Shown: piece after piece, positions 5,440-43,245 of the stretch | Layout of the letters: each line of letters starts with the position of its first letter | Position numbering within the stretch: position 1 is the first letter of the stretch | NCBI RefSeq assembly: GCF_001552155.1 | Contig: NZ_BCQQ01000016.1 | Span: 1-64,000, forward strand | DNA from: Actinomadura formosensis NBRC 14204 | GTDB taxonomy: Bacteria > Actinomycetota > Actinomycetes > Streptosporangiales > Streptosporangiaceae | DNA length: 64,000 nt | Reading direction: 5' to 3' | Translations under genes and position numbers: made by a program | The notes under the pieces: generated by a model | Told to the model about the DNA's origin: nothing | Database searches by the model: none | Seen by the model: only the letters and a program-made list of their open reading frames with translations

Positions 5440-6039
5440 GTGCTGAAAGTGGGACTCACCGGCGGAATCGGGTCGGGCAAGAGCGAGGTGTCGGCGCGGT
5501 TGCGCGAGCGCGGCGCCGTGGTCATCGACGCCGACAAGATCGCCCGGGAGGTCGTCGAGCCGGGCACGCCCGGCCTCGCCGCCGTCGTGGCGGAGTTCGG
5601 CGGGGACGTGCTGCTGCCGTCCGGCGGCCTGGACCGCGAGAAGGTCGGCCGCATCGTGTTCGGCGACCCCGCCCGGCTCGCCGCGCTGAACGCGATCGTC
5701 CACCCGCTGGTGGGGGAGCGGATGCAGGAACTGATGGACGCCGCCCCCGCCCGCGCGGTCGTCGTCTACGACGTCCCCCTGCTGGCGGAGAACGGCCTGG
5801 CCCCCATGTACGACGAGGTCATCGTGGTGGACGCGCCGGAGGAGACCCAGCTGGACCGCCTGGTCGCCCGCCGCGGCATGACCGAGGAGGACGCCCGCGC
5901 CCGCATGGCGAACCAGGCGTCCCGCGCGGACCGCCGCGCGATCGCCACCCACATCATCGACAACTCCGGCACCCTGGACGACCTGAGAACCCAGGTCGAC
6001 GCCCTCTGGGAGACCCTCACCCGCCGTGCCGCGCCCTAG
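5440..6039 (+). CDS. coaE: Dephospho-CoA kinase
   Basis: This 199-residue cytoplasmic enzyme phosphorylates dephospho-CoA in the last step of CoA synthesis. The P-loop [11 protein letters not shown] begins at residue 5, and the [15 protein letters not shown] and ARMANQ motifs of the family follow. The start GTG 5440 gives the normal family N-terminus and fits the TAGGGT box; longer in-frame starts overlap the acetyltransferase. Its TAG (6037–6039) overlaps the stop codon of the convergent TIR–NACHT gene, so the two genes share their ends. Confidence 0.95.
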
Positions 6040-9000
6040 AAGGGGGCGTCGAGGGGGAGGCGGTGGACTTCGGGGAGGTAGGGGTCCAGTTCGCCTGGTT
6101 CGAAACGGCACATGCCGACCGCGTACCAGAATTCGGCGGTGGCGTTGCCCTCCGATTTGTAGCGGCCGTCGGGGGCCAGGGCGGCCCAGCCTTCGGGCAG
6201 CCCGAGGAGGGTGGCGCGGCGGGTGGGGGCCGCGCGGCCGGCGACGTCCCACAGGATGACGGCGCCGTCGTCGCCCGCGGTGGCGAGGAGGTCGCCGTCG
6301 GGGTTGAAGGCCGCCGACCAGACGCGGCGGGTGTGGCCGGGGAGGGTGTGCAGGAGACGCCCGTCGGACGGGTCCCACAGGCGCACCACCAGGTCGTCGC
6401 CCGCGCTGGCGAGCATCGTGCCGGACGGGTGGAACGCCGCGGTCCACAGGCGGCCCGTGTGGGCGGTGAGGATGTGCAGGACGTCGCCTGTGGCGGGGTC
6501 CCAGATCCGGACGGTGCCGTCGTTGCTTGCACTGGCGAGGATCTCACCGGACGGGGAGAAGGCCACCTGGTAGACGCGGTCGGTGTGGCCGCGCAGGACG
6601 GCGGCGAGGGCGCCGGTGCGGGGGTGCCAGAGCCGGACCAGGCCGTCGTCGCAGCCTGTGGCGAGCAGGTCGCCGTTCCGGTGGAAGTCGATGGAGCGGA
6701 CGCGGCCCCGGTGGTCGGCGAGTTCGACGATCTCGCGGCCGGTCGTCCAGTACCAGATGCGGACGGAGTCGTCGTCGTTGGCGGTGGCGAGGAGGTCGCC
6801 GCCGGGCGCGAACGCCTGCGCCCACACGTGGTCGGTCTCCACGTTCAGCTCGCGTTCGAACGTGCCCGTCCCCGCCTGCCACAGGTGGACGCCGCCGTCG
6901 TTGGTGGCGGTGGCGAGCTGGGTGTGGCGGGTGTTGAACGCGGCGGAGGTGAGGTTGTCGGCGACGCCGCGCAGCTCCCGGATCATCCGGCCGGTGCGCG
7001 GCTCCCACAGCCGGACGAGGCCGTCGTTGCCGCTGGAGGCGAGCATGCCGCCGTCCGGGCTGAACGCGACGCCGGTGACGCGGCGGCCGTGGCCGCGCAG
7101 CACGACGCGGCACCGCCCGGTCTCGGCGTCCCACAGCCGGGCGGTGCCGTCGTTGCTGCTGGTGGCGAGCTGCGTGCCGTCGGGACGGAACGCGAACGGC
7201 CACACGGCGCCGCGGTGCCCGGCGAGTTCGAGGCGCTGCCGCCCGGTCCCGGGGTCCCACAGCCGGACGGAGCCGGCGCTGTCGGAGGTGGCGAGACGTC
7301 CGCCGTCCGGGCTGAACGCCGCCTGGTAGATGGCGCCCTCGTGGCCCGGCAGGACGCTGCGCTGCCGGCCGTCCGCCCAGATCCGGACGGACCCGTCGGT
7401 GTCGCCGGTGACGAGGAGGTTCCCGCCGGGGTGGAAGGCGATGGCGTAGACGCGTCCGGTGTGGCCGAGGAGTTCCCGCCGGATCTCGCCGGTGCGGATG
7501 TCCCAGAGCCGGACGACGCCGGCCTCGTCACCGGCGGCGAGGACGGAGCCGTCCGGGTGGAAGACGGCGCGGAACACCGCGCCCCGGTGGCCGGTCAGCT
7601 CGCGCCGCAGCGCGCCCGTGGCGAGGTCCCAGACGCGCAGGGTTCCGCCCGCGTCGCCGGTGACCATGAGGGAGCCCGCGGAGTCGAACACGGCGGTGTA
7701 GACGGGCGCGGTGTGCCCGGGCAGCTCGTGCAGGAGGGCACCGGACGCGATGTCCCACACGCGGACGGTCCCGTCGGCGGCGCCCGCCGCGAGGAGGCCG
7801 GCCCCGGAGGGGGAGAGCCCGCCGGTGACGACCGGCCACACCCCTTCGGGATGGACGGTGAGGATGTGCGCGCAGTGCCCTGTGGCGAGGTCCCAGATCC
7901 GGACGGTTCCGTCCGCCGAACCACTCGCCAGGAGGTTGCCTTCCGCGTCGAACGCCACCGCGTAGGTGCGGTCGGTGTGGCCCTGGAGCGTGCGCAGGGG
8001 AGTGCCCGAGACGGCGTCGCACACGAGGACGCCGCCGTCCTCGCTGCCCACGGCCAGTACGGAGCCGCCCGGGCTGTAGACGAGCGGCTGGGGGAGGCGG
8101 CTGGTCTGGAAGTGGAAACCGTAGGGGACGCCCACCGCGGGCGGTGCGAGCTGGATGTCGATGGGATGCCCGGGGGCGATCGCGGCCTCGCGCAGCTCGG
8201 GCGCGGCGGCGATCCGGGCGGGGAGCGCGGCGTCCACGAGGGCGGCGCGGGTCCAGCGGCTGCCGTCGACGGCGACGTCCCGCAGGTCGGCGCGGGCGAG
8301 GCGGGCCCGGGACAGGTCGGCGCCGCGCAGGTCGGCCCCGGTGAGCCGCGCCTCGTCCAGGCGGGCCCCGGCCAGCGACGCGTCCCGCAGGACGGCGCGC
8401 GACAGGTTCGCGCCGACGAGTTGCGCGTCGGTGAGGTCGGCGCCCGTCAGGTCGACCTCCTGCAAGTCGCGGTAGGACAGGTCCTCGCCTTGCAGGCGGG
8501 CGCCGCGCAGGTCGGTGCGCGCGGGGGTGCGCAGCCGTGTCGTGATGCGGATCGCGTTGGCGCGGGCGATGTCGTCGGCGTCGGGGTCGGCGAGCACGCC
8601 GGCCGCCCAGTCCTGGCAGGCTCGCGTGTCGGCCAGGTCGCACAGGAAGTCGACGGTGAGCTGGGTGAGCGTGCGATGCCCCAGGGCGGCGGGGGCCGCG
8701 CCGCCGGCGAACTCGTCCGCGATGTGCCGCGCGACGAGCCACTCCATCACCGAGGTGTGGATGAACCCGAACAGGCCCTCGTCGGTGCGGACCAGCAGGC
8801 TCCCGGCGCCGACGGCGTGCGTCACCTGGTGCGGGGACATCCGGCCGCCGGCGAGGCCGGTGAGGGTGTCGGCGACGTCGGCGAGCTCGGCGAGCCGCAG
8901 GAACTGCTCGTTGCCCTCCCACAGGCGCAGCGCGAGCGTGCCCACGGCCCGCCACATGTCCTCGGCCTTCAGCCCGGAGGGCCCGCCGGCGCCGCCGACC

Positions 9001-11867
9001 CGGTCGGCCTCGTGGGCGAGCCAGGACGACAGGATCTCGTGGTAGAGGTCGGCGGGGCTGACCGCGCGGCGGGCCTGCGCGACCGCGTGCAGCCGGTCCT
9101 CGGGCAGGTCGGCGATGAACGAGAGCATCCGCGGGTTGGGCGTCAGCGCGAGCAGCTCCTCGATGCCCGCGAGCAGGCTCAGCCGGGCCTCGGCCGCGCC
9201 CTCGTCCCCGTACCGGTTCACCAGGTACGAGCGGACCTGCGGCGGCGTGAACTCCTCCAGGCCGAGGACGCGCCGGTGCGGCAGCACGCCGACCTTCTCG
9301 CCCAGCGCGGTCAGCACCTGTGCCTGCGACTTGAAGTGCTGGGTGCGGCTCGCCACCACGATCTTCGCCTTGTCCCGGGCGGCCTGCAGCAGCGTGTCGA
9401 GGTGGTCGGCGGCCCGGTCGTAGGTCATCCGCGTCACCAGCTCGTCGAACCCGTCGAAGAGCAGGACGATGCGTCCCTGGCGGAGCATGTAGTGGAACGC
9501 CTTGAGGTCGATCAGCTCCTCGCCGTGGTTGGCCAGGTGCGCGGCGACCAGGCCGTCCACCGAGTGCGCCTTGTCGAGGGCCCGCAGCTCGATGAGGATC
9601 GGGATGACGTGCGGCAGCTCCTCGGGGATGCGGCGGGCCAGCTCGCGCAGCGCGAACGTCTTGCCGCGCCCGAAGTCGCCGAGCAGCAGCAGGAACCGGC
9701 CGTGGTCGGCGGCCAGCAGCCGCAGCATCTCGGCGACGACGTCCTCGCGGGCGCCCCCGGCGGGCGCGTCGTCGCCGGCCGGGGTCCCGGAACGGAACCG
9801 GTCGAGCTCGCGGTACCGCTGCGGGACGTACAGGGACGGCGGATACAGCCCGTCGCCGGCCAGCCGCCGCGTCTGCGCCGTCACGTACTCCGACAGGTCG
9901 AGCAGCCCCTGGAACTCGGTGAGGCTGCGCACCCGGATGCCGCGCCGCAGCGCGTCGTCGCGCAGGGCACGAGGCGGTGCCGGCCCCAGGTACACGAGCT
10001 CGGACCCGTGGTCGGCCCCGTCGGCGTGCACGTGCCGGACGAACGCGTCCACGTCCGCCTCGGTCACCTGCCCGACGTGGGCGCCGATGCGGTACTGGCG
10101 GACGAACCCGTCCTCCAGGTGGGTCAGCAGCAGGTGCGGCGGGTCGGACCGGCCCTCCTCGCGCGCGGGCGGGACGATCCGGCGGATGGTCGCGCGCTCG
10201 AACCGCGTCTCGCACGCCTCCGTCAGCCGGTCGAGGAGCCGCGCCGTGGGATCGGGCACCGGATCGGCGGCGCCGTCGCCGGCCGGACCCAGTTCCGGGG
10301 CGGGCGGGGCGGGCGGGGTCTCGGCACGCGGCGGCGGGAACGTTCCCCGGACGTTCGGCCATGACCGTTCGAGCCGCTCCGGGCCGCGGCGGGCGGCGTC
10401 CTCGGGAATCCACCGTTCCAGGCCGTCCCGGCGCAGGACGACGATCTGGTGGCGGCCGGGGCCGAGCGCGGGGACGGCCGGGACGCCGCCGCCGAGCTGC
10501 GGAATCGCACCGAACTCCGATCCCGTCCCCTGGAAGAACAGGTTGACGTGGCCGCCGAGAAGCGTTTCCACCGTCTCGGGGTCGCGCAGCGCCCCGGGCT
10601 CACCGGAGATGGGCGTGTGCTCGATCGCCCCCAGGCGGAGCCAGCCCTCGTCTTCGAAATGGCGCAGCCGCTCGTTGAACCAGGCGGCCTGGGCCTGTCC
10701 GACACGTCCGTACCGGTCCTCCTCGCGGTGGGTCTGCGGCAGGGTCGAGTTGAGACCGGCCACCACGACCCGCAGGTCCGGGACGGGGAACAGCGTCCAC
10801 GGCTGCGCGCTGTCGAAGATCAGCGCGTCGATGCCCTGGTAGAACTCCTTGAACAGGCCCGCGTAATGCCGCCATTTCGGCCAGTACGGCGGCTGCGGCT
10901 CGATGTCGTCGGCCTCGCAGCCGGCGAAGTACGCCCGGCACGCGGCGCGGGTGACGTCGTGGGTGCCCGGCACGATGACGACGCGCTGCGCCTCCAGGCC
11001 GAGCAGCGCCCGCAGGCTCGTCAGGAACGACAGCGCCTCGGCGAACTCCTTGCGGCTCCCCGAGTGGGTGAGGTTGCCGGTGACGACCAGCAGGTCGGGC
11101 CGCGGCACGCCGGAGTCGGCCAGCCGCGTCACATCGCTCCAGATGCGGTCCTGCAGCTCGGTGGCGGTCGTCGGCTCGCCCGGTTCGGCCAGCGTCCGGC
11201 CGAACCGGGGCCCCGAGACGTGCAGGACGCTCAGCTCCTCGCGCGCCTCGTGCCCGGTGCCCGCGGCAGGGAACGCGGGCGCGGCCACGGGCGCCCGCCG
11301 GACGGGACGCTCCCCGACCGGCTCCTGCGGCCCGTCAGGCGGTTCCAGGCGGCCCGGCAGCACGTCACCGCCGCCCGGCGGCGAGAAGCCGCCGGGGAAG
11401 CCGGGGCCGTTGAGGGGCCGGGCGTGACCGGCGAGGGCCTCCCGGATGCGCCGCATCAGCAGCCCGCGCGCCTCGTCCGGATCGTCGATCCCCACCAGGT
11501 CCACATAGGTGATCGTGGACAGCAGCCCGTCGATCGGGCAGTCCTCGATCCGGACCGTCACGAGCTTGCGGGCCGGGTCGTCCGGATCGGCCCGCAGCGC
11601 CGCCATCCACTCCAGCCGCCCGTACCGGGAGCGCAGGTAGTTGCGCGACAGCACCGCCACCACGGCCTTGGCCTCCGACAGGCCCCGGTCCATGAAGTCG
11701 ATGAAGTTGGTCCCGGGCACGAAGTCCCACGCCTGCATCATCGTCCGGTGCCCGGCGGCCTCCAGCTGCCAGGCGATCCAGGACGCCCATCGCTCGTCCG
11801 CGGGCGAGTAGCTGACGAAGAAGTCGGTCGGACGCTCCTGCCTGGGGTGGCCGCCGGGGGGAGTCAT
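6036..11867 (-). CDS. TIR – degenerate metallophosphoesterase – NACHT – pentapeptide repeat – WD40 protein (NLR-like sensor)
   Basis: A 1,943-residue multidomain protein. Residues ~14–145 form a TIR domain ([13 protein letters not shown] with Glu86 in the usual catalytic position). Residues ~212–480 look like a calcineurin-type phosphoesterase, but most metal ligands are replaced (GxR at 219–221, GN at 264–265, GTHD at 301–304, GTGS at 447–450). A NACHT ATPase follows, with Walker A GDFGRGKT (730–737) and Walker [11 protein letters not shown] (801–810). Pentapeptide repeats cover ~1117–1200, 15 WD40 blades ~1256–1880, and the last ~55 residues match a tail I know from other actinobacterial WD40 proteins. 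By family, TIR domains often degrade NAD+, NACHT oligomerises on ATP and WD40 senses a ligand; an anti-phage or stress suicide role is inferred. The start ATG 11867 gives the TIR N-terminus; longer frames run into the divergent transporter. Confidence 0.92.
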
Positions 11868-11873
11868 GCCGCC

Positions 11874-11879
11874 AGTATC
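11874..11879 (-). promoter_or_regulatory. Possible −10 box (GATACT) for the TIR–NACHT gene
   Basis: On the minus strand GATACT lies 6 bases before the ATG at 11867, the leaderless spacing used elsewhere in this window. There is no clear ribosome binding site, which supports a leaderless start. The 87-base divergent gap to the transporter gene is otherwise GC-rich and without a recognised operator. Confidence 0.35.
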
Positions 11880-11954: not shown

Positions 11955-13187
11955 ATGACGGCCGTGCCGCCCCCGATGAAGACCCTGCGCCGAGCCGCCG
12001 GCGCCCTGGGCGTGCTCGACTGGATCCGCATCGGGGTGCTCGCGCTGGGGCTCGTGTTCGTCGCCACGGGCCTGCTGCCCGCCGACACGGCCCGGTCCAG
12101 CATCGGGCGGATCGCGCCCCTGCTGCTCTTCCTGTTCAGCGTCATCGTCCTGGCGGAACTCACCAAAGAGGCCGGGGTCTTCGACGCGATCGCGGAGCGG
12201 ATGGCGCGGGCCGGACGCGGGAACTACGTCGCGCTCTTTCTGCTGTGCGTGGTGTTCGCGTCGCTCACCACCATCTTCCTCAACCTCGACACGACCGCCG
12301 TGCTGTTGACGCCGGTCATGCTGGCGCTGGCGGCGCGCGCGCGGATCGTCACCCTGCCGCTGGCCATGACGACGGTGTGGCTGGCCAACACCGCGAGCCT
12401 TCTGCTCCCGTTGTCCAATCTGACCAACCTCCTCGCCGCCGACCAGGTGGCTCTGCAGACCCGTGCTTTCGCGGCCCGCATGTGGATGCCGCAATTGGCC
12501 GCCCTGGCCGTCACCATGGCGCTGCTGTGGGTGTTCTATTGGCGGCGGCCCATGCGCGGTGAGGACGCCTATGACCCGCCCGACCTCGCGCCCGTGCGCG
12601 ACCGGGTGCTGTTCTCCGCCACGGGGATCGCGTGCCTGCTGTTCATCGGGGCGATCCTGGCGGGCGTGCACACCGGGATCCAGCTCGGCATCGCCGCGGC
12701 CGTCGCCGCCGTCGTGGCCGTCGCCGCCTTCGCCGTGCGCGACCGTTCGGCGCTGCGCCCCGTCCTCATCCCGTGGCAGCTCATGGTGTTCGTCACCGGG
12801 CTGTTCCTGGTCGTTCCCACGCTCGAACGGTTCGGGCTGGACGATGTCATGCGCGCCCTCGTCGGCCACGACGGCGACGCGGCGGGGGCGCTCCGGGCGG
12901 CGTTCTCCGGGGCGGGCCTGTCGAACGTCCTCAACAACCTTCCCGCCTATGTGGCGGGAGAGTCGGCCGTACCGGCCTCCAACAAGGACCAGCTCCTCTC
13001 CCTGCTCATCGGGACCAACGTGGGGCCGGTCATCACGCCGTGGGGCTCGCTCGCCACGCTGCTGTGGTTCGAATGGTGCCGGCGGTGGGACGTCCGCGTC
13101 CCGATCCGCAAGTTCGTGCTCACCGGGACCGTCCTGGCGGTGCTGGGCTGCGCAGCCGCCGTCGGTGTTCTTCCGCTGACCCGGTAG
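11955..13187 (+). CDS. ArsB/NhaD-type (CitMHS-fold) membrane transporter
   Basis: A 410-residue integral membrane protein with about ten to eleven hydrophobic segments. It has the two signature regions of the ion-transporter superfamily: NLDTTAVLLTPVM in the first half and GLSNVLNNLPAY in the second, both typical of ArsB/NhaD/SLC13 carriers. The ion cannot be told from sequence; arsenite, Na+/H+ or a carboxylate are all possible. No arsenic genes are nearby. The ATG 11955 was taken as start; ATG 11976 is an alternative. It is transcribed away from the TIR–NACHT gene and converges on the inositol-monophosphatase-like gene. Confidence 0.8.
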   Translation: MTAVPPPMKTLRRAAGALGVLDWIRIGVLALGLVFVATGLLPADTARSSIGRIAPLLLFLFSVIVLAELTKEAGVFDAIAERMARAGRGNYVALFLLCVVFASLTTIFLNLDTTAVLLTPVMLALAARARIVTLPLAMTTVWLANTASLLLPLSNLTNLLAADQVALQTRAFAARMWMPQLAALAVTMALLWVFYWRRPMRGEDAYDPPDLAPVRDRVLFSATGIACLLFIGAILAGVHTGIQLGIAAAVAAVVAVAAFAVRDRSALRPVLIPWQLMVFVTGLFLVVPTLERFGLDDVMRALVGHDGDAAGALRAAFSGAGLSNVLNNLPAYVAGESAVPASNKDQLLSLLIGTNVGPVITPWGSLATLLWFEWCRRWDVRVPIRKFVLTGTVLAVLGCAAAVGVLPLTR

Positions 13188-13216
13188 GCGCCCCGCAAGG
13201 CGGCTTGCAGGACGGC

Positions 13217-14119
13217 TCACAGGGCGACGTGGAAGCGGCCGTCAGGGCGGGCTATCCGCGTCGTGGTCTCCAGGAGGCGGCCGAGGAGGTCGGGACGCGC
13301 GGCCACGAACCCCAGCTCGGACGCCGGGCGGTCGATGCCCATCTCGTACGGGCCGCCGTCCAGGCGGCGTAGTTCCGCGCCCGCCTCGGCGGCGACCAGC
13401 GCCCCGGCCGGCAGATCCACGATCTCGGGCAGATAGCCGACGATCCCGTCGATGTCACCGCGCGCCAGCATCGTCCACGCCACCAGCGGCGCCCACAGTT
13501 GGAGCATGCGGGCGCACTGCTTCTCCAAGGATGTGCGAAAGGCGAACGCGACGGGATCGTCCGACTTGACCTGGTGCCCCTGCGTCCATGCCAGCACGGG
13601 GTTCTCAGCCCGGCCGGGCCGCGGACGGTCAGGCAGCCTCAGCGGTGCCCCGTCCGGCCCCAGGGCGCCCTTCCCGCGCATCGCCGACCACGTCCGTCCC
13701 GACACCGGGTCGTGGACGACGCCCAAGACCGGCCGGGTGTGCGCGCACAGCGCCAGCCCCACCGCGTAGACCGGCATGCCGATCGCCACGTTGTTGGTGC
13801 CGTCCAGCGGATCGACGAGCCACACCAGCTCCTCGCCTCCGCCGGTGTCCTCGCCGGGCGCGCCGTCGAGGACACCGGACTCCTCCGCGATGATGCGATG
13901 CCCCGGATACGCGGCCCGCAGCCGCCCGACGATCAGTTCCTCGGCGGCCGTGTCCAGCGCCGTCACCACGTCCCCGCCCGCGCCCTTCGGGCGGACCTCC
14001 AGGGGACCGCCCATGCCCGCGCTCAGCAGGGCGCCCGCCGCCTCGGCGGCGTCCACCGCCACGCCGCGGGCCTGGCAGAGATCGACCGGAAGGGCCGCTG
14101 ACGGGGTCGTGGGTTTCAT
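13217..14119 (-). CDS. Inositol monophosphatase family protein
   Basis: A 300-residue Mg2+-dependent phosphatase of the IMPase/FBPase/CysQ superfamily. The metal-binding motifs EESG and DPLDGTNN are intact, and a second aspartate motif (VDLPAGALVAAEAG) lies near the C-terminus. Possible substrates include inositol phosphates, histidinol phosphate or 3'-phosphoadenosine nucleotides; sequence alone does not decide. ATG 14119 is preceded by GGAGAGG on the minus strand. It follows the cupin-like gene by 32 bases and is probably its operon partner. Confidence 0.85.
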   Translation of the reverse strand: MKPTTPSAALPVDLCQARGVAVDAAEAAGALLSAGMGGPLEVRPKGAGGDVVTALDTAAEELIVGRLRAAYPGHRIIAEESGVLDGAPGEDTGGGEELVWLVDPLDGTNNVAIGMPVYAVGLALCAHTRPVLGVVHDPVSGRTWSAMRGKGALGPDGAPLRLPDRPRPGRAENPVLAWTQGHQVKSDDPVAFAFRTSLEKQCARMLQLWAPLVAWTMLARGDIDGIVGYLPEIVDLPAGALVAAEAGAELRRLDGGPYEMGIDRPASELGFVAARPDLLGRLLETTTRIARPDGRFHVAL

Positions 14120-14151
14120 CGGGGCCTCTCCAGTCGGGTTCCGGCGGCGGC

Positions 14152-14847
14152 CTACCGGCGCGCCGAGCATTGGGCGGCGGCGATCCTGCGCACGGAACGA
14201 CGCAGGGCGCGCACCGTGTCGGCGAAGTCGGAACGAGAACGACGCACGCTATGCGTGGGCGTGCCCAGAGGGCCGAGGGACAGGTCGCCGCCACCCGGTA
14301 TTTGGCGGCCCAAGGCGATCGTGGCCGCGTCCATGCCGTCCTCTATCAGCGTGCTATGGAACACGCCCGCCGGGAGGGTGTACGACTCCCCGGTCCGGTG
14401 CGCGGTGGAACGCCTCGGAGAGCAGCGGACGGCGCGCCCCGTCGCTCTCAGCTCGTCCACGTCCCCCTCGCTGACGACCTCGAACACCTGCCGCGCCGCC
14501 CCTCCGGCGGCCTCCCCGGCGGCCTCCTGGACGTCCATCCGCACGTTCCGCACCGTCCCGTACAGGACGAAGCTGAGCAGATCCCAGCTGTGGCAGTGGA
14601 CCGCGGACGTGGTGGACGGCGCCGGACGCACCTCCGGCGTCCAGAGGTGCAGGCACACGCCGAGACCACCGCTGCGCTCCACCGGGAGGCACAGGAAGCC
14701 CAGCGGGTGCCGCACCGCCGGGACCGGCGGCCCGCCGTCCGCCGCGATGCCGTCCAGGATGCCGCGGAGGACGCCCCTCGCCCACGCCGGCAGCGTCCGC
14801 GCCGCCGTCCCGGCGCGGATCTCCCCGCGGATCTCCTCGTACTTCAC
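14152..14847 (-). CDS. Cupin-like protein of unknown function
   Basis: This 231-residue protein has a VHCHSWDLLSFVLYG segment and, ~70 residues later, LPAGVFHST. The two His clusters, separated by β-rich sequence, look like the two metal-binding halves of a cupin, similar in layout to cysteine dioxygenase-type enzymes. I do not recognise a named family, and the cupin call rests on these motifs only. The C-terminus is Arg/Ser-rich. It lies between the two-TM protein and the phosphatase with 31–32-base gaps, so the three are probably one operon. Confidence 0.6.
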   Translation of the reverse strand: MKYEEIRGEIRAGTAARTLPAWARGVLRGILDGIAADGGPPVPAVRHPLGFLCLPVERSGGLGVCLHLWTPEVRPAPSTTSAVHCHSWDLLSFVLYGTVRNVRMDVQEAAGEAAGGAARQVFEVVSEGDVDELRATGRAVRCSPRRSTAHRTGESYTLPAGVFHSTLIEDGMDAATIALGRQIPGGGDLSLGPLGTPTHSVRRSRSDFADTVRALRRSVRRIAAAQCSARR

Positions 14848-14878: not shown

Positions 14879-15892
14879 TCACTCGTACGGGTCCTTCGCC
14901 CGCAGCGCCTTACGGATGATCTCGATGACGTCCCGGTCGGTGTAGTCCCGCGCGAGGCCGATGCCGAGCACCTCGAACAGCTTGCGGACCTCCTCGACGG
15001 TCGGCTCGTCGTCCAGCGGCGCCAGCCTGGCCTGCTCGACCGGGACGCGGCGCGCCTGGTCCAGGCTGGTCTGCAGCTCCGCGCTCACCCAGCTGTAGTA
15101 GAACTTGGCGCTGTCGACGACCAGCGCCTCCCCGCGCGGATCGTCGCGGGTCACCACCACCCGCGACGCCGCCAGGTCGTAGCGCAGCGTCGTCATCGTC
15201 CGCGCCAGGCCGATGTCGATGTCGAGCATGGCGAACCGCTGCTTGTGCCAGCACGCCGCCAGGATCGTCGCGTACGCCTCCTTGCGGGTGCGCTCCAGCG
15301 TCCACGGCTCACCGGTCGCGTCCGGGCCGTCCGACACCGAACGGCGGTGGCGCGCGTACGCCTCGCACACCTCCACATCGGTGGGGTCGAGGATCTCCAG
15401 GCGGAACAGCAGCGTGCGCCGCTCCCTGCGGGCCGCCGCCACGCACTCCGGCAGCGTGCGCGCGCGTATGTACGTCCCCGTCCCGCCCTTGAAGAACCAC
15501 CGGTCGGTGTCGCGGCGGGCCTCTTCCAGGACCTGCGCCACCTGCGCCCCGCTGATGACACGGACGACCGTGGTCTCGTCCAGCGTGTGCTTGGTGTCGG
15601 CCAGGACGTTCTCGAACCCCTCGATGTGGGCCAGCCTGCCGCTCAGGTCGTCGAGCGTCGCCGAGGACGCCCGGAGCGTGTCGCGGACCTCCGCCTCGAC
15701 CGGGATGCGGCGCCCGCGGTCCCGCAGCACCGACGTCGCCAGCAGGCCGATCACCGCGAGGATCCCGCTGTTGGTGATGTCGGCCTCGTGCGGCAGGTTC
15801 ACCCCGAGACCCAGCACCGCCACGACGATCGCCAGCACCAGCGCGATCACTGCGTCGGCGTTCTTCCCGAACCAGTTGGCGAAGCGGGTCAT
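14879..15892 (-). CDS. Two-TM membrane protein with soluble C-terminal domain, function unknown
   Basis: A 337-residue protein with two N-terminal membrane segments (about residues 14–32 and 40–56), a short coiled-coil-like stretch, then a ~220-residue soluble α/β region containing DRWFFKGGTGTYIRAR and a LLFRLEILDPT strand. The layout of a two-helix membrane unit joined to a ligand-binding-like domain resembles effectors in nucleotide-signal systems, but I cannot assign a family. It heads the probable operon with the cupin-like and IMPase-like genes. The ATG is at 15892; 204 bases separate it from the divergent histidine kinase. Confidence 0.6.
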   Translation of the reverse strand: MTRFANWFGKNADAVIALVLAIVVAVLGLGVNLPHEADITNSGILAVIGLLATSVLRDRGRRIPVEAEVRDTLRASSATLDDLSGRLAHIEGFENVLADTKHTLDETTVVRVISGAQVAQVLEEARRDTDRWFFKGGTGTYIRARTLPECVAAARRERRTLLFRLEILDPTDVEVCEAYARHRRSVSDGPDATGEPWTLERTRKEAYATILAACWHKQRFAMLDIDIGLARTMTTLRYDLAASRVVVTRDDPRGEALVVDSAKFYYSWVSAELQTSLDQARRVPVEQARLAPLDDEPTVEEVRKLFEVLGIGLARDYTDRDVIEIIRKALRAKDPYE

Positions 15893-16096: not shown

Positions 16097-17248
16097 ATGT
16101 ACGTGCGGGGCTGGTGGACGGGGGCATGGCCCACCCGGCGTTCGCGCGCGCTCGACGTCTTCCTGGCGGTGTCCCTGGCCGCCGGCGACGGCGTGTTCCT
16201 GTGGTTCGCCGACCAGAAGTTCTGGCTGCCGCCGCCCGTCGTGTCGGCGTGCAGCGTCGTCCTCGGCCTGGCGCTCGTCGTGCGGCGCTCCCACCCCGTG
16301 GGGCTCGCCCTGTTCCTGCTCGTGTTCGGGACGATCACCGGCGCGGGCGTGTTCGCCGTCCTGGTCGTGCTGTACTCGCTCGCCGCCTACACCGCGTCCC
16401 GCTGGACGGTCCTGACGATCGCCGCCGTCACCTACATCGCCGCGCTGGCCTTCCCGTCCCCGACGGCGACGGCGGACAACTTCGCCGTGCAGGCCATCTT
16501 CGGCATCGCGTTCATCGCGGTTCCCGTCCTGCTGGGCCTCTACATGGGGGCGCGCAAGCAGCTCCTCGCCTCGCTCCAGGAACGCGCGGCGAGGCTCGAA
16601 CGTGAACAGCACCTCCTCGCAGAGCGCGCGCGGGGCGAGGAACGCACCCGCATCGCGCGGGAGATGCACGACGTGGTCGCCAACCGGATCAGCGTCATGG
16701 TCGTGCACGCGGGCGCGCTCAAGGCGATCGCCGCCCGCGACCCCGAGCGGGCCGCCGAGACCGCCACCATCATCGGGGACATGGGGCGGCAGGCCCTGGA
16801 GGAGCTCCGCCACGTCATCGGGGTCCTGCGCCAGGGCGAGGAGGCCCTTCCCCAGGAGGCGGTGACACTCGCCCACGTCCGCGAGCTCGTCGGCCAGTCC
16901 GGCGCCGCCGGCCTCCGCGTCGACCTGGCGGTCCGCGGCGAGGAGCGCCCGATGCCGATCGCCGTGGGACGGACGGTGTACCGCCTCGTCCAGGAGGCCC
17001 TCACCAACGTCCACAAGCACGCCGGGGCCGCCGACACCCGCGTCGGCCTCGGCCTGCTGCCCGAGGCGATCGAAGTGGAGATCGTCAACGACCCGCCCAC
17101 CGCACGGCCCGAGCACCGGCTGCCGAGCGGCGGGAACGGCCTGGTCGGGCTGCGCGAGCGCGTCACCGCCCTCGGCGGCAGCTTCGAGGCCGGGCCCCGC
17201 GGAGGCGGCTACGCCGTCCGGGCGAGGCTGCCGCTGCCCGCGTCCTGA
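16097..17248 (+). CDS. Orphan NarL/DesK-type sensor histidine kinase
   Basis: The protein has 383 residues. Residues ~18–150 contain four or five membrane segments with little extracellular sequence. A HisKA_3 dimerisation helix follows with phospho-acceptor His191 in REMHDVVANRIS, then an HATPase domain (~285–380) with an N-box (VQEALTNVHKHA) and G-box (GNGLVGLRERV). Kinases of this family normally act with a LuxR/NarL-type response regulator, but none lies next to it; uvrB follows directly. The signal is unknown; loop-poor membrane domains often sense envelope stress or membrane fluidity. Confidence 0.88.
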   Translation: MYVRGWWTGAWPTRRSRALDVFLAVSLAAGDGVFLWFADQKFWLPPPVVSACSVVLGLALVVRRSHPVGLALFLLVFGTITGAGVFAVLVVLYSLAAYTASRWTVLTIAAVTYIAALAFPSPTATADNFAVQAIFGIAFIAVPVLLGLYMGARKQLLASLQERAARLEREQHLLAERARGEERTRIAREMHDVVANRISVMVVHAGALKAIAARDPERAAETATIIGDMGRQALEELRHVIGVLRQGEEALPQEAVTLAHVRELVGQSGAAGLRVDLAVRGEERPMPIAVGRTVYRLVQEALTNVHKHAGAADTRVGLGLLPEAIEVEIVNDPPTARPEHRLPSGGNGLVGLRERVTALGGSFEAGPRGGGYAVRARLPLPAS

Positions 17249-30734: not shown

Positions 30735-31942
30735 ATGGCGCGGCAGGTGAAGCGGGCGTTTCGGTACCGTTTCTATCCCACTCCCGGACAGGCGGCGGAA
30801 CTCGCCCGCACGTTCGGCTGTGTGCGGCTGGTGTACAACCGGGCGTTGGAGGAACGCACCCGCGCCTGGTACGCCGAGCGGCGGCGGGTCTCCTATGTGG
30901 AGACCTCCGCGATGCTCACCGGGTGGAAGAAGACCGAAGAGCTGGCGTTTTGGGCGAGGTGTCCAGCGTGCCGCTGCAGCAGGCGCTGCGGCACCTGCAG
31001 ACCGCGTTCACCGGCTTCTTCGCCGGGCGCGCCAGGTACCCGCGGTTCAAGTCGCGCAAGAAGTCGCGTGCCTCGGCGGAGTACACCCGCTCGGCGTTCC
31101 GCTGGCAGGACGGGTGCCTGACGCTGGCCAAGATGTCCGAGCCGCTGGCGATCGTGTGGTCGCGGCCCCTGCCGCAGGGGGCGGTGCCGTCCACGGTGAC
31201 CGTCAGCCGGGACGCGGCCGGGCGCTGGTTCGTCTCGATCCTGTGCACCGACACCATCGCCCTGCTGGAGCCGGTGGAGCGGGCGGTGGGGGTGGACGCG
31301 GGAATCACCTCACTGGTCGCCCTGTCCACCGGGGAGAAGGTCGCCAACCCCAGGCACGAGCGCCGCGACCGCGAACGCCTGGCCAGAGCGCAGAAGGACC
31401 TGTCCCGCAAGGCCAAGGGCTCGGCGAACCGGGACAAGGCCAAGATGCGGGTGGCGCGGATCCATGCCCGGATCGCCGACCGGCGCCGGGACTTCCTGCA
31501 CAAGCTGACCACTCGGCTCGTCCGTGAGAACCAAACGGTCGTGATCGAGGACCTGAACGTGCGCACCATGGTCAAGAATCACTCGCTGGCGCGTGCGATC
31601 TCAGACGCGGCGTGGCACCAGTTGCGGTCGATGCTGGAGTACAGGGCCGGCTGGTACGGCCGTGAACTCATCGTGGTCGACCGGTGGTTCCCCTCCACCA
31701 AGACGTGCGCAAAATGCGGAACCATCACCGACACGTTGCCCCTTGAGGTGAGGGAATGGGAGTGCGGCGGGTGCGGCGTCCGGCATGACCGGGACGTCAA
31801 CGCCGTGAAGAACGTTCTGGCCGCCGGGCCGGCGGTATCGGCCTGTGGAGCCGACGTAAGACCCAAACGGCGCAGGCCCGGCGGGCGGACGGCGACGAAG
31901 CGGGAAACCCGATCGGCGACGGTCGGAATCCCCTGCCCCTAG
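30735..31942 (+). pseudogene. tnpB: TnpB RNA-guided nuclease gene with a one-base frameshift
   Basis: The N-terminal part (MARQVKRAFRYRFYPTPGQ…) runs in one frame to the T4 tract at 30948–30951, and the rest continues in another, from …LGEVSSVPLQQALRHLQ to the stop at 31942. One missing T explains the break. The catalytic RuvC residues are intact (VGVDAGITS, VIEDLNV, HDRDVNAVKN), as is the zinc ribbon with two CxxC pairs. TnpB cuts DNA beside its TAM, guided by an RNA made from the element's right end. A TAGGGT box (30722–30727) precedes the ATG by 7 bases. A sequencing error cannot be excluded. Confidence 0.85.
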
Positions 31943-40050: not shown

Positions 40051-40959
40051 TCAGCCGGCGACCGGCGTGAAATCACGCGCGCCGATGAACGTCGGCCGGG
40101 GCGCGGACGCCGAGAACGGCTCGACGCACGTGTTCTCCACGCTGTTGAACACGATGAACACGTTGGAGCGCGGGAACGGGGTGATGTTCCCATTTGAGCC
40201 GTGCATGCAGTTGCAGTCGAACATGGTCGCGGAGCCCGCCGGTCCCGTGAACAGCTCGATCCCGTGCTTGTCAGCCAGAATCGAGAGGCTGTTGGGATCG
40301 GGGGTGCCGATCTCTTGCCCCCGCAGAGACTCCTTATAGTGGTCGGCCGGGGTCTCTCCCACGCACGCCACGAAGGTCTTGTGCGAACCAGGCATAATCA
40401 TTAGCCCGCCATTGTGCACGAAGTTCTCGGTGAGCGCGATGGATATGCTCACCGCGCGCATCCGCGGCATGCCGTCCTCGGCGTGCCAGGTCTCGAAGTC
40501 GGAGTGCCAGTAGAAGTCCTTGCCGGTGAACCCCGGCTTGTAGTTGACCCGGCTCTGGTGCACGTACACCTCCGAGCCGAGGATCTGCCGGGCCCGTCCG
40601 ACGACGCGCGGGTCGCGGACGAGTTCGGCGAAGACCTCACTGATCTTGTGGACCTCGAAGATGGAGCGGACCTCGTCCGAGCCGCGCTCGGTGACCGTGC
40701 GCTCGTCGGCCAGGATCTCCGGGTCGGACGACAGCCGGCGCAGCTCGGCGCGGTAGTCCTCGACCTCCTCCGGCGCGAGCAGCTGGTCGACGGTCAGGAA
40801 GCCGCCGGCCTCGAACGAGTCGAGGGTGGCCTCGTCGATCGGCCCGTCCTGCGGCCCGCCGTACACGACCGGGTCCTGCCGGTACAGCAGCGCCGCCTCG
40901 ACGGCCTTCCGGGTGGGGTAGGCGTCGTCGAGCGTCGGATGGGACTCGATGATGCTCAT
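40051..40959 (-). CDS. ectD: Ectoine hydroxylase
   Basis: A 302-residue Fe(II)/2-oxoglutarate dioxygenase that turns ectoine into 5-hydroxyectoine. The iron ligands are His and Asp in [15 protein letters not shown] and a distal His in [10 protein letters not shown]; the first is part of the EctD signature. It overlaps ectC by 4 bases (ATGA) and completes the synthesis operon. Confidence 0.96.
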
Positions 40960-41351
40960 GCGTCCTCCTCGGTCAGCAGGGGGTAGACACCGTTCTCGTC
41001 ATGGACCTCCCGGCCGGTGCAGGGCGGGTTGAAGACGCACACGGTCTTCACGTCCGTGTGCGCGCGCAAGGTGTGGTGCTCGTGGCCGTCCAGCAGGTAC
41101 ATCACGCCGGGCCGGATCTCGTGCTTCTCCCCGGTCTCGTCGTTGGTGAGCTCCCCGTGGCCCTCGATGCAGTAGACGGCCTCGATGTGGTTCGCGTACC
41201 ACATCTTCGTCTCGGTCCCCGCGTACAGGATCGTCTCGTGCAGGGAGAAGCCGACGCCCTCCTTGGCCAGCACGAACCTGCGGCTGCACCAGGTCGGCGC
41301 CTGTACGTCGCGCTCCGAGCCGACGATCTCGTCAAGGGAACGAACGATCAT
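40956..41351 (-). CDS. ectC: L-ectoine synthase
   Basis: A 131-residue cupin enzyme that closes the ring of N-γ-acetyl-diaminobutyrate to give ectoine. The family motifs [15 protein letters not shown] at the start and [13 protein letters not shown] and [12 protein letters not shown] in the cupin core are present. It overlaps ectD by 4 bases and starts 33 bases after ectB. Confidence 0.97.
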
Positions 41352-41384
41352 GAATCTCCTCTTTCCAGGTGTACCGGCGGCGGC

Positions 41385-42647
41385 TCAGACGGTGACTTTC
41401 TCGCGGACGGCCTCGACCGAGTCCGCGATGATCTCAAGGCCGTGGGCCAGTTCGGCCTCGGTCGTGGTGAGCGGCGGCAGCAGCTTGACGACCTCTCCCT
41501 CGGGGCCGGACGTCTCCATCAGCAGGCCGCGGTCGAACGCCTCGGCGCACACCTTCGACGCCATCTCCGGGTCGTTCATCACCAGGCCCCAGGCGAGGCC
41601 GCGGCCCCGGATCGTGCTGATCGCGCCGGCGTGCGCGAGCGCGATCTCCTCCAGCGCCGCCTGGACCTGCTGGCCCTTGGAGAGCGTCTGCTTCTCCATG
41701 TCGTCGCCGGTCCAGTAGCGCTCCAGCGCGGCGACGGCGGTGACGAACGCGGGGTTGAAGCCGCGGAAGGTGCCGTTGTGCTCGCCCGGGTCCCACACGT
41801 CCAGCTCGCGCTTCATCAGCGTGACCGCGAACGGCAGCCCGTAGCCGCTGAGGGACTTGGACAGGCAGACGATGTCCGGGACGATCCCGGCCTCCTCGAA
41901 GCTGAAGAACCGCCCGGTGCGGCCGCAGCCCATCTGCACGTCGTCGACGATGAGCAGGATGTGGTGCCGGCGGCACAGGTCCTGCAGGTGGCGCAGCCAC
42001 TCGGCGGTGGCGACGTTGATGCCGCCCTCGCCCTGCACGGTCTCCACGATGACGGCGGCGGGCTTGTCCAGGCCGCTGCCGCTGTCGTCCAGCATCGTCT
42101 CGAACAGCAGGAAGTCGGGCGTCCGGCCGTCGAGGTAGTTGTCGTAGGGCATCGCGACCCCGTGGCCGAGCGGGACGCCGGCGCCGGTGCGCTTCATCGA
42201 ATTACCGGTCACCGCGAGCGCGCCGAGCGTCATCCCGTGAAAGGCGTTGGTGAAGCTGACGACGGTCTCCCGGCCGGTGTACTTGCGGGCGAGTTTCAGC
42301 GCCGCCTCGACCGAGTGGTTGCCCGCGGGGCCTGGGAACTGCACCTTGTAGTCGAGCTCCCGCGGACGCAGCACGTACTCCTTGAAGCGTTCCAGGAACT
42401 CGCGTTTGGCCGCGGTGTACATGTCCAGGCTGTGCACGATCGCGTCGCCGGCGAGGTAGTCCAGCAGCCGGCGTTTCAGCTGCGGGTTGTTGTGCCCGTA
42501 GTTGAGCGTCCCGGCACCGGCGAAGAAATCAAGATAGGTTTTACCGTTCTCGTCGGTCATGTGGCTGCCCCGCGCGGTGGTGAACACCGTGGGCCAGCCC
42601 CTGCAGTAGCCGCGGACTTCCGATTCCAGACTGGCGAAAACGTCCAT
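41385..42647 (-). CDS. ectB: Diaminobutyrate–2-oxoglutarate transaminase
   Basis: A 420-residue PLP-dependent class III aminotransferase that makes L-2,4-diaminobutyrate from aspartate semialdehyde, the first ectoine step. The cofactor region LIVDDVQMGCGRTGRFF and the lysine in LSKSLSGYGLP are intact. GGAGG precedes ATG 42647. It follows ectA by 49 bases. Confidence 0.96.
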   Translation of the reverse strand: MDVFASLESEVRGYCRGWPTVFTTARGSHMTDENGKTYLDFFAGAGTLNYGHNNPQLKRRLLDYLAGDAIVHSLDMYTAAKREFLERFKEYVLRPRELDYKVQFPGPAGNHSVEAALKLARKYTGRETVVSFTNAFHGMTLGALAVTGNSMKRTGAGVPLGHGVAMPYDNYLDGRTPDFLLFETMLDDSGSGLDKPAAVIVETVQGEGGINVATAEWLRHLQDLCRRHHILLIVDDVQMGCGRTGRFFSFEEAGIVPDIVCLSKSLSGYGLPFAVTLMKRELDVWDPGEHNGTFRGFNPAFVTAVAALERYWTGDDMEKQTLSKGQQVQAALEEIALAHAGAISTIRGRGLAWGLVMNDPEMASKVCAEAFDRGLLMETSGPEGEVVKLLPPLTTTEAELAHGLEIIADSVEAVREKVTV

Positions 42648-42696
42648 GTCTGCCTCCAGACAGGTCGGGATGGAGCGGATGGGGGAGTGGGCGGGA

Positions 42697-43245
42697 TCAG
42701 TTCGCGTCGGCGATCGGGCCGATCCTGAAGAGCACCTCGGGCTCGTGTCCCCCCTCGGGGAAGTGCTCCGCGCCGAACAGCGGGCTGCGGACGAGCTCGC
42801 ACCCGCGGTCCCGGGCGAACGATTCGAACATCGCGGTGGAAGCGGTGTTGTCCGGCGTGACCGTGGCCTCCATGTACCGGTGCCCGCGGGGGGCGAGCCG
42901 GTCGGCGAGGTGGTCGAGCATGCGGCGGGCGAGGCCCTGGCCGCGGTGGTCGTGGTCGACGGCGACCTGCCACACGAAGAACGTGTCCGAACGACCGGGC
43001 CGGACGTAGCCGGTGATGAAACCGCACGCGCCGGCGGCATCGCGCGCCACCACGGACGTTTCCGCGAAATCGCGGCACCAAAGGGTGTAGCTGTACGGCG
43101 AGTTGACGTCCAGGACCTGTGAGTCCCGGGCGAGCCGCCACAGCCCTGGGCCATCGGTCAGGCTCGGCTCCTGGAGTTGCACTTCCGCGTTCGTCTCGTG
43201 CGTGTCGGGGCGTCGAGTCGGTGTTTCCAGGGATTGCGCTGCCAT
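42697..43245 (-). CDS. ectA: L-2,4-diaminobutyrate N-γ-acetyltransferase
   Basis: A 182-residue GNAT enzyme and first gene of ectABCD. The acetyl-CoA motif VAVDHDHRGQGLARRMLDHL and the substrate motif NSPYSYTLWCRDF are typical of EctA. No clear ribosome binding site precedes the ATG; a minus-strand TAAGTT box 9 bases upstream allows a leaderless start. Confidence 0.95.
   Translation of the reverse strand: MAAQSLETPTRRPDTHETNAEVQLQEPSLTDGPGLWRLARDSQVLDVNSPYSYTLWCRDFAETSVVARDAAGACGFITGYVRPGRSDTFFVWQVAVDHDHRGQGLARRMLDHLADRLAPRGHRYMEATVTPDNTASTAMFESFARDRGCELVRSPLFGAEHFPEGGHEPEVLFRIGPIADAN

Follow-up and report, generated by a model that had tools for sequence, protein, structure and literature searches.

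What does a bacterial protein laid out like an NLR immune sensor respond to, and does it act alone? The question is raised by a gene at positions 6036-11867 (minus strand) of the first 64,000 nucleotides of contig NZ_BCQQ01000016.1 from Actinomadura formosensis NBRC 14204, a stretch that we call the window. The first-pass annotation, made from the sequence alone, described its 1,943-residue product as a candidate immune sensor joining a TIR domain, a phosphoesterase-like pseudo-enzyme, a NACHT ATPase, pentapeptide repeats and WD40 repeats, encoded by a solitary gene beside coaE. The gene is real and all five domains are present, although a sixth had been missed. The sensor interpretation is partly supported, but the gene is not solitary: a divergent permease gene adjoins it, a trio of further genes usually accompanies them, and the cassette is gained or lost as a block together with its NLR-like core. 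Our best reading is that the block is a conflict module whose core senses the state of the host more than a fast-changing phage protein. With moderate confidence, we regard the NLR-like protein, the permease and the usual trio as one block in which an APAF-1/TEP1-like alarm switches on a predicted TIR NADase.

A conserved block around the NLR-like gene

The block and its borders comprise the following features.

5440..6039, plus strand: coaE, one border of the block
6036..11867, minus strand: g5, six-domain NLR-like gene, 1,943 aa
11868..11954, no strand: divergent intergenic region of 87 bp shared by the NLR-like gene and g6
11955..13187, plus strand: g6, ArsB/NhaD-like (CitMHS/ArsB) permease of 410 aa, the divergent partner
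13217..14170, minus strand: g7, inositol-monophosphatase-family protein, start at 14170 or 14062
14152..14847, minus strand: g8, cupin-like protein
14879..15892, minus strand: g9, protein with a hydrophobic N-terminus and a GGTGTYxRAxTLP motif
16097..17248, plus strand: g10, histidine kinase, the other border

Scanning species genomes with the first 700 residues of the NLR-like protein yielded 131 relatives, the best 80 of which were kept as loci. These 80 come mainly from Actinomadura and Spirillospora (71-92% identity), along with two metagenome-assembled genomes (64-65%), Micromonospora/Plantactinospora (54-55%), and Streptomyces, Kitasatospora and Streptacidiphilus (47-52%). A protein search gave 690 proteins at E <= 1e-50 (7,981 scored); the best 120 of them are 1,704-2,047 aa long and also include proteins from Streptosporangium, Sphaerisporangium, Microbispora, Nonomuraea and others.

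Of all neighbours, the permease is the most constant. Sequence was fetched for all 80 loci, one of which (L032) begins inside the NLR-like gene, and in the 79 with a readable 5' side the permease gene lies directly upstream and divergent (79/79), with a median of 88 bp between the two starts. Among 60 Actinomadura genomes, 45 carry both genes, adjacent in 45/45, 14 carry neither, one (G022) has the permease alone and none has the NLR-like gene alone. Within the class sample, the permease adjoins the NLR-like gene in four genomes (57-74% identity to g6), and a fifth has a 35% relative of g6 at the 3' side; no permease match was found in six, namely G292, where the NLR-like matches are partial, and five genomes with paralogous-looking MPE-NACHT proteins only. 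The g6 product matches the PDB entry 'Arsenical pump membrane protein' (4.3e-31) and scores below the NCBIfam ArsB cut-offs (169.2 vs 457, 134.8 vs 415 and 131.5 vs 760 bits).

Beside the permease, on the opposite strand, lies the trio g9, g8 and g7, represented in 70, 71 and 68 of the 80 loci, respectively; the sequences of L016 and L032 end early. The g9-g8 gap has a median of 19 bp (69 loci), and g8 and g7 overlap or are separated by less than 60 bp in 65/68 loci. Besides the Micromonospora/Plantactinospora loci considered below, g7 is absent from L025, L026 and L070, and g9 from L057, while in L005 (7060-8895) no stop interrupts the g8 frame before g7 ends (612 aa), which may reflect a fusion or an error. 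The g7 protein matches PF00459 (6.5e-38), and its metal-motif residues (EE, DPLDG and the third Asp) are invariant in 31 rows. Pfam detected Cupin_2 in 9/35 members of g8 (best 0.0038) and scattered weak matches only in members of g9, and the profiles of both gave no useful PDB match. Of the 246 genomes in the class sample, eight, including A. formosensis itself, gave strong scores for g9, and a ninth gave a weak one, with a stop; g8 adjoins g9 in 7/7 of the other seven and g7 in 6/7. The 330-aa product of g23 (window 30950-31942, plus strand) shares 71% identity with a protein located between g8 and g9 in L108 (12529-13542). We take both to be TnpB-like, so that a mobile-element protein can land inside the block.

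Presence, absence and genomic sites

At all 13 readable Actinomadura sites without the NLR-like and permease genes (L091-L103), the whole block is absent beside coaE. There, the histidine kinase and g11, which we take to be uvrB, come next after coaE, with 79-1001 bp between matches, versus about 10 kb in the window; coaE of the fourteenth block-less genome was not located. In G022 (L089), the permease is the sole block gene left at this site. One of the block-less genomes (L101) has a WD40-repeat-like stretch beyond g11 (12751-14664, minus strand).

On a four-gene tree with 49 labelled rows, at least six changes between presence and absence are needed, five of them forced by well-supported branches, and the label is clustered (6 changes vs a shuffled mean of 12.2). 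Because the 'present' rows are mostly loci chosen for the NLR-like gene and the 14 'absent' rows derive from the 60-genome sample, the tree is informative only as to the minimum number of changes; G022 was scored as absent, and L106-L108, having too few columns, were left out. Within Actinomadura, the pairwise distances of the NLR-like protein follow those of g11 (Pearson 0.91, 465 pairs) and g2 (0.93, 325 pairs), which indicates inheritance with the genome; the values for g9 and g6 are 0.90 and 0.84.

In Streptomyces, Kitasatospora and Streptacidiphilus, 24 right flanks fall into 17 groups and 25 left flanks into 18, whereas under the identical procedure the Actinomadura flanks, 27 and 30 in number, form a single group on each side; with tblastx, 25 flanks of Streptomyces and kin form 18 groups and 26 form 19. 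Amid these changing flanks, g7 and g8 are present in 27/27 loci and g9 in 26/27, inverted in L055, and across 25 loci the distances of g6 (0.90), g7 (0.86), g8 (0.87) and g9 (0.94; Spearman, 300 pairs) correlate with the NLR distances. In Nonomuraea gerenzanensis (L112), the order is g9-g8-g7-g6-NLR, with coaE 6.8 kb further. The sole full match among plasmid records is an 11.85-Mb record of the same species, evidently the chromosome. Insertion linked to tRNA genes was considered and rejected, as the ARAGORN hits, seen in 4/27 loci, all lie within the permease or NLR stretch and are probably false.

It is very improbable that the neighbours are unrelated and merely held together by slow genome rearrangement. 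The synteny of the whole Actinomadura region speaks for such an explanation, but in Streptomyces and kin the set holds together across differing flanks, and the block genes are missing together at 13/13 sites; for g6, it is largely refuted.

Domain architecture and start of the NLR-like protein

All features of the NLR-like gene are on the minus strand.

11469..11822: TIR_2 domain, residues 16-133, with Glu86 at 11610-11612
10353..11252: degenerate class III phosphodiesterase fold, about residues 206-505
9894..10244: NA-iREase3 (NACHT-associated inactive restriction-endonuclease fold), residues 542-658, the domain missed at first
9219..9695: NACHT, residues 725-883, with Lys736 at 9660-9662 and Walker B at about 9441-9455
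8223..8513: pentapeptide repeats, about residues 1119-1215
6228..8105: WD40 array, about residues 1255-1880, 14 Pfam stretches
11874..11879: conserved -10-like element, -12 to -7 of the start codon

The effector-type domain (TIR_2) is thus N-terminal and the repeats (WD40) are C-terminal. Between them, the NACHT domain (PF05729, 1.3e-10) is a P-loop ATPase with Walker A and B motifs present, and a helical module lies behind it, as in NLRC4 and NOD2. Thirteen blades of the WD40 array are on average 42% alike. Searched against PDB sequences, residues 171-1100 gave 2xmo as the sole match (0.067).

An alignment of 71 full-length sequences was built from the 80 loci and the window; the ten left out comprise seven that run off a contig end, one that begins inside the gene, one with an early stop and one with a mis-set start. 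Invariant in 71/71 are Glu86 and Tyr82 of the TIR domain and Lys736, Asp805, Asp808 and Glu809 of the NACHT. The TIR glutamate is the presumed catalytic residue, and an aromatic residue four positions before it is also meaningful for catalysis. The TIR domain is a predicted NADase. Two genomes of a single genus, G221 and G292, have 35 and 26 places, respectively, that match the N-terminal 700 residues, mostly in the TIR part, a large set of TIR proteins within one genus.

Conserved positions ahead of the start codon are A at -11 (74/80 sequences), T at -7 (72/80) and G at -6 (73/80), whereas Shine-Dalgarno-like motifs occur in 7/80. Given the spacing rule for leaderless promoters, the message is predicted to be leaderless, starting at 11867. 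We rejected a 2,394-aa reading from GTG 13220 since the extra stretch opposes g6 and the 11867 start has the conserved -10 spacing. An Rfam scan gave no match.

Slow evolution of the sensor and the guard alternative

Purifying selection acts on every domain of the NLR-like protein. The median dN/dS over the 40 closest Actinomadura pairs (88-98.5% identity) is lowest in the TIR domain (0.061), followed by the C-terminal tail (0.077), pentapeptide repeats (0.093), NACHT (0.103), inactive endonuclease (0.133), phosphodiesterase (0.146), post-NACHT region (0.211), WD40 array (0.217) and first linker (0.370). A fast-evolving sensor was rejected, as the WD40 array displays no hypervariability among these pairs. 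The copy of Actinomadura sp. J1-007 (L038, 10001-12013) ends after 670 aa, which is either a real loss or an assembly error.

Because the WD40 array changes slowly, we think that the sensor watches some component or state of the host rather than a phage protein that evolves fast. This fits indirect sensing, with the permease as a candidate guarded protein. It is possible, if doubtful, that the block is a guard system proper: the NLR-like protein would monitor the permease or the state of the membrane and its ions, and disturbance by a phage, toxin or antibiotic would lead to TIR-driven arrest, such that phage defence would be one trigger among several. The constancy of the permease, its co-varying distances (0.84 in Actinomadura, 0.90 in Streptomyces and kin) and the slow sensor all agree with this possibility. 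On the other side, physical contact between the two proteins would be a presumption, and the retention of the permease alone in G022 suggests that it is useful without the NLR-like protein.

A probable pseudo-enzyme between TIR and NACHT

The phosphodiesterase-like domain adopts the Rv0805/SMPDL3A fold. L090, a relative with intact motifs, served as the reference for its metal motifs, which are named as in calcineurin-like enzymes. Gly219 replaces the Asp of the first motif, and both HH (residue 416) and GHxH (residue 448) lack their first His, each in 71/71, whereas Asp304 and His417 are retained in 71/71. Asp265 of the GD motif is Asn in 41/71 and is kept in 30/71, including all 27 rows of the Streptomyces group; the Asn of GNHD is kept in 2/71. 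Thus, the domain looks like a pseudo-enzyme in all 71 aligned proteins, as had been proposed at the outset.

More distant relatives suggest how this state arose. L090, which has no TIR domain, retains SDLQ/GD/GNHD/HH/GHxH, so that the phosphodiesterase domain was probably once a working effector. Three TIR-bearing paralogs, L122, L125 and L128, all from one 5-Mb genome (G076), also retain intact motifs and are candidates for a dual-effector form; the motifs are partly decayed in L114 and decayed in L113, L118, L123 and L124. There is no TIR match in L118 and a weak one in L123; L119 and L131 are partial sequences. Taken together, the residues lost here, the intact motifs of L090 and G076 and the decay elsewhere make the most likely history, as inferred here, one in which a TIR domain was added in front and the phosphodiesterase was later inactivated and kept as a regulator. 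The stricter notion that the metal site decayed as soon as a TIR was gained fails, given that L122, L125 and L128 combine TIR with intact motifs. The dead phosphodiesterase and the inactive nuclease folds are probably regulatory, ligand-binding or spacing domains.

A proposed mechanism and the evidence against it

Under the conflict-module reading, the WD40 propellers would keep the NACHT ATPase inactive; a trigger would release the NACHT, which would oligomerise into a ring and cluster the TIR domains, and the clustered TIR would cleave NAD+. The outcome would be abortive infection or another self-limiting response, a self-sacrifice alarm raised on sensing attack. By analogy, NACHT oligomerisation likely fires the TIR. 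What the sensor watches may be a component or state of the host, possibly the permease or the membrane that holds it, and the g7 phosphatase, the g8 cupin-like protein and g9 would likely handle or respond to the TIR product. We consider unlikely, at present, the fullest version of this scheme, a five-gene, two-compartment immune cassette of multicellular actinomycetes in which a TEP1-like alarm guards or signals to the permease, TIR makes an NAD-derived messenger, g9 is a membrane effector reading it, g7 and g8 trim it, and the phosphodiesterase is a dead DS-8-type effector reused as a messenger-binding brake.

Several observations weigh against the proposed role. The best PDB sequence matches of the TIR domain are the TIR domains of Toll-like receptors and MyD88, which are mostly scaffolds, so that Glu86 alone is no proof of NADase activity. 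We regard as rather unlikely, however, that this TIR is a non-catalytic scaffold recruiting another effector, for example g9. In G292, where no ortholog of the NLR-like gene was seen, another TIR protein (L110, 13929-16253, plus strand; 4e-8 to the TIR profile of the NLR family) does lie directly beside g9-g8-g7; yet Glu86 and Tyr82 are invariant, the TIR is the most constrained domain, and the trio is not always nearby. Indeed, the trio was not seen in the available sequence of the seven Micromonospora/Plantactinospora loci (three with short flanks). Among the seven other class-sample genomes with g9, the NLR-like gene is in the same stretch as the trio in four, and in three of these the trio and the permease are separated by other genes spanning 5-7 kb; it is 15 kb away in one, and no ortholog was seen in two. 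The role of the trio is therefore uncertain.

Also unfavourable are the fixed site of the block in the syntenic Actinomadura region and the correlation with g11, which make the block look more like a core trait there; the lack of any match to the NLR-like protein in phage records; and the flanks. The first-pass suggestion to look for defence islands found none obvious in Streptomyces and kin: among 127 flank proteins from 20 loci, compared without a baseline, PADLOC matched no family at more than two loci at 1e-15, and most matches were to PD-T4-6, a generic model. This missing island signal, the vertical inheritance and frequency of the block in Actinomadura (45/60 genomes) and the ArsB/NhaD-like permease would suit a regulator of stress-related or developmental cell death in multicellular actinomycetes, not directed against phages; the permease would then pump out a toxic ion or metabolite, and the NLR-like protein would sense when this export fails. 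We find this improbable: the distribution is patchy (at least five changes on the tree) and spans many sites in Streptomyces and kin, like that of a dispensable, exchanged module, and a scan of nine neighbours found no arsenic-operon gene.

If the block does serve in defence or cell death, it would represent a bacterial NLR-like system tied to a constant membrane-transport partner, in which the presence and absence of the whole cassette can be compared at a single site among congeners that are otherwise syntenic. It would also display an effector swap, from an intact TIR-less form through an intact form with TIR to one with TIR whose phosphodiesterase motifs are lost. Its order of TIR, NACHT and WD40, like that of human TEP1/NWD1, would make it a tractable bacterial model for the release of NACHT by WD40 propellers to fire an NADase.

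Comparison with known systems

In the literature searched, from which most subscription journals were excepted, no description of this cassette was found. The nearest antiphage protein is DS-8, which also combines an SMPDL3A-like metallophosphatase with NACHT in a single protein and loses defence when the predicted metallophosphatase catalytic residues are mutated, according to the passages available (PMC13092281). The NCBIfam models DS8 and DS9_1 match the NLR-like protein below their cut-offs. Unlike DS-8 as described there, the NLR-like protein has lost its metal ligands, has a TIR in front, an inactive nuclease between and pentapeptide and WD40 repeats behind, and its gene has conserved neighbours. 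The class III phosphodiesterases, such as Rv0805, share the fold, but their two-metal ligand motifs are not kept.

The layout of a TIR-like domain (DUF4062) next to NACHT, with WD40, recurs in human TEP1 and NWD1; TEP1 has NADase activity, and the authors speculate that APAF-1-like release by WD40 activates the TIR-like domain (PMC13174449, in part). Bacterial Swarozyc is likewise a DUF4062 NADase; DUF4062 is a different TIR-like family from the TIR_2 of the window, and these passages mention no phosphodiesterase, inactive nuclease or permease partner. A central NACHT/STAND ATPase is also found in Avs4 (a PDB chain) and bNACHT25, for which the text available proposes indirect sensing by way of DnaJ, a chaperone of the host (PMC12169576); the TIR effector, the six domains and the gene block with permease set the present system apart from what is given for both.

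Conflict systems of multicellular bacteria link TIR, calcineurin-like, STAND/NACHT, pentapeptide and beta-propeller domains in one network, and the passages available describe neither this domain order nor this cassette (PMC7159879, PMC8195603). Unlike in Thoeris, Pfam detects no ThsA-type SLOG/macro domain in g6-g9; PADLOC gave no match for g6, g7 and g9 and, for g8, JAB at 0.052. LypABC, as far as the excerpts go, is an immune-type NLR-like system that serves other ends (PMC13236601).

Other genes in the window

Away from the block, consecutive genes on the minus strand (window 40051-43182) resemble what we presume to be an ectoine/hydroxyectoine operon.

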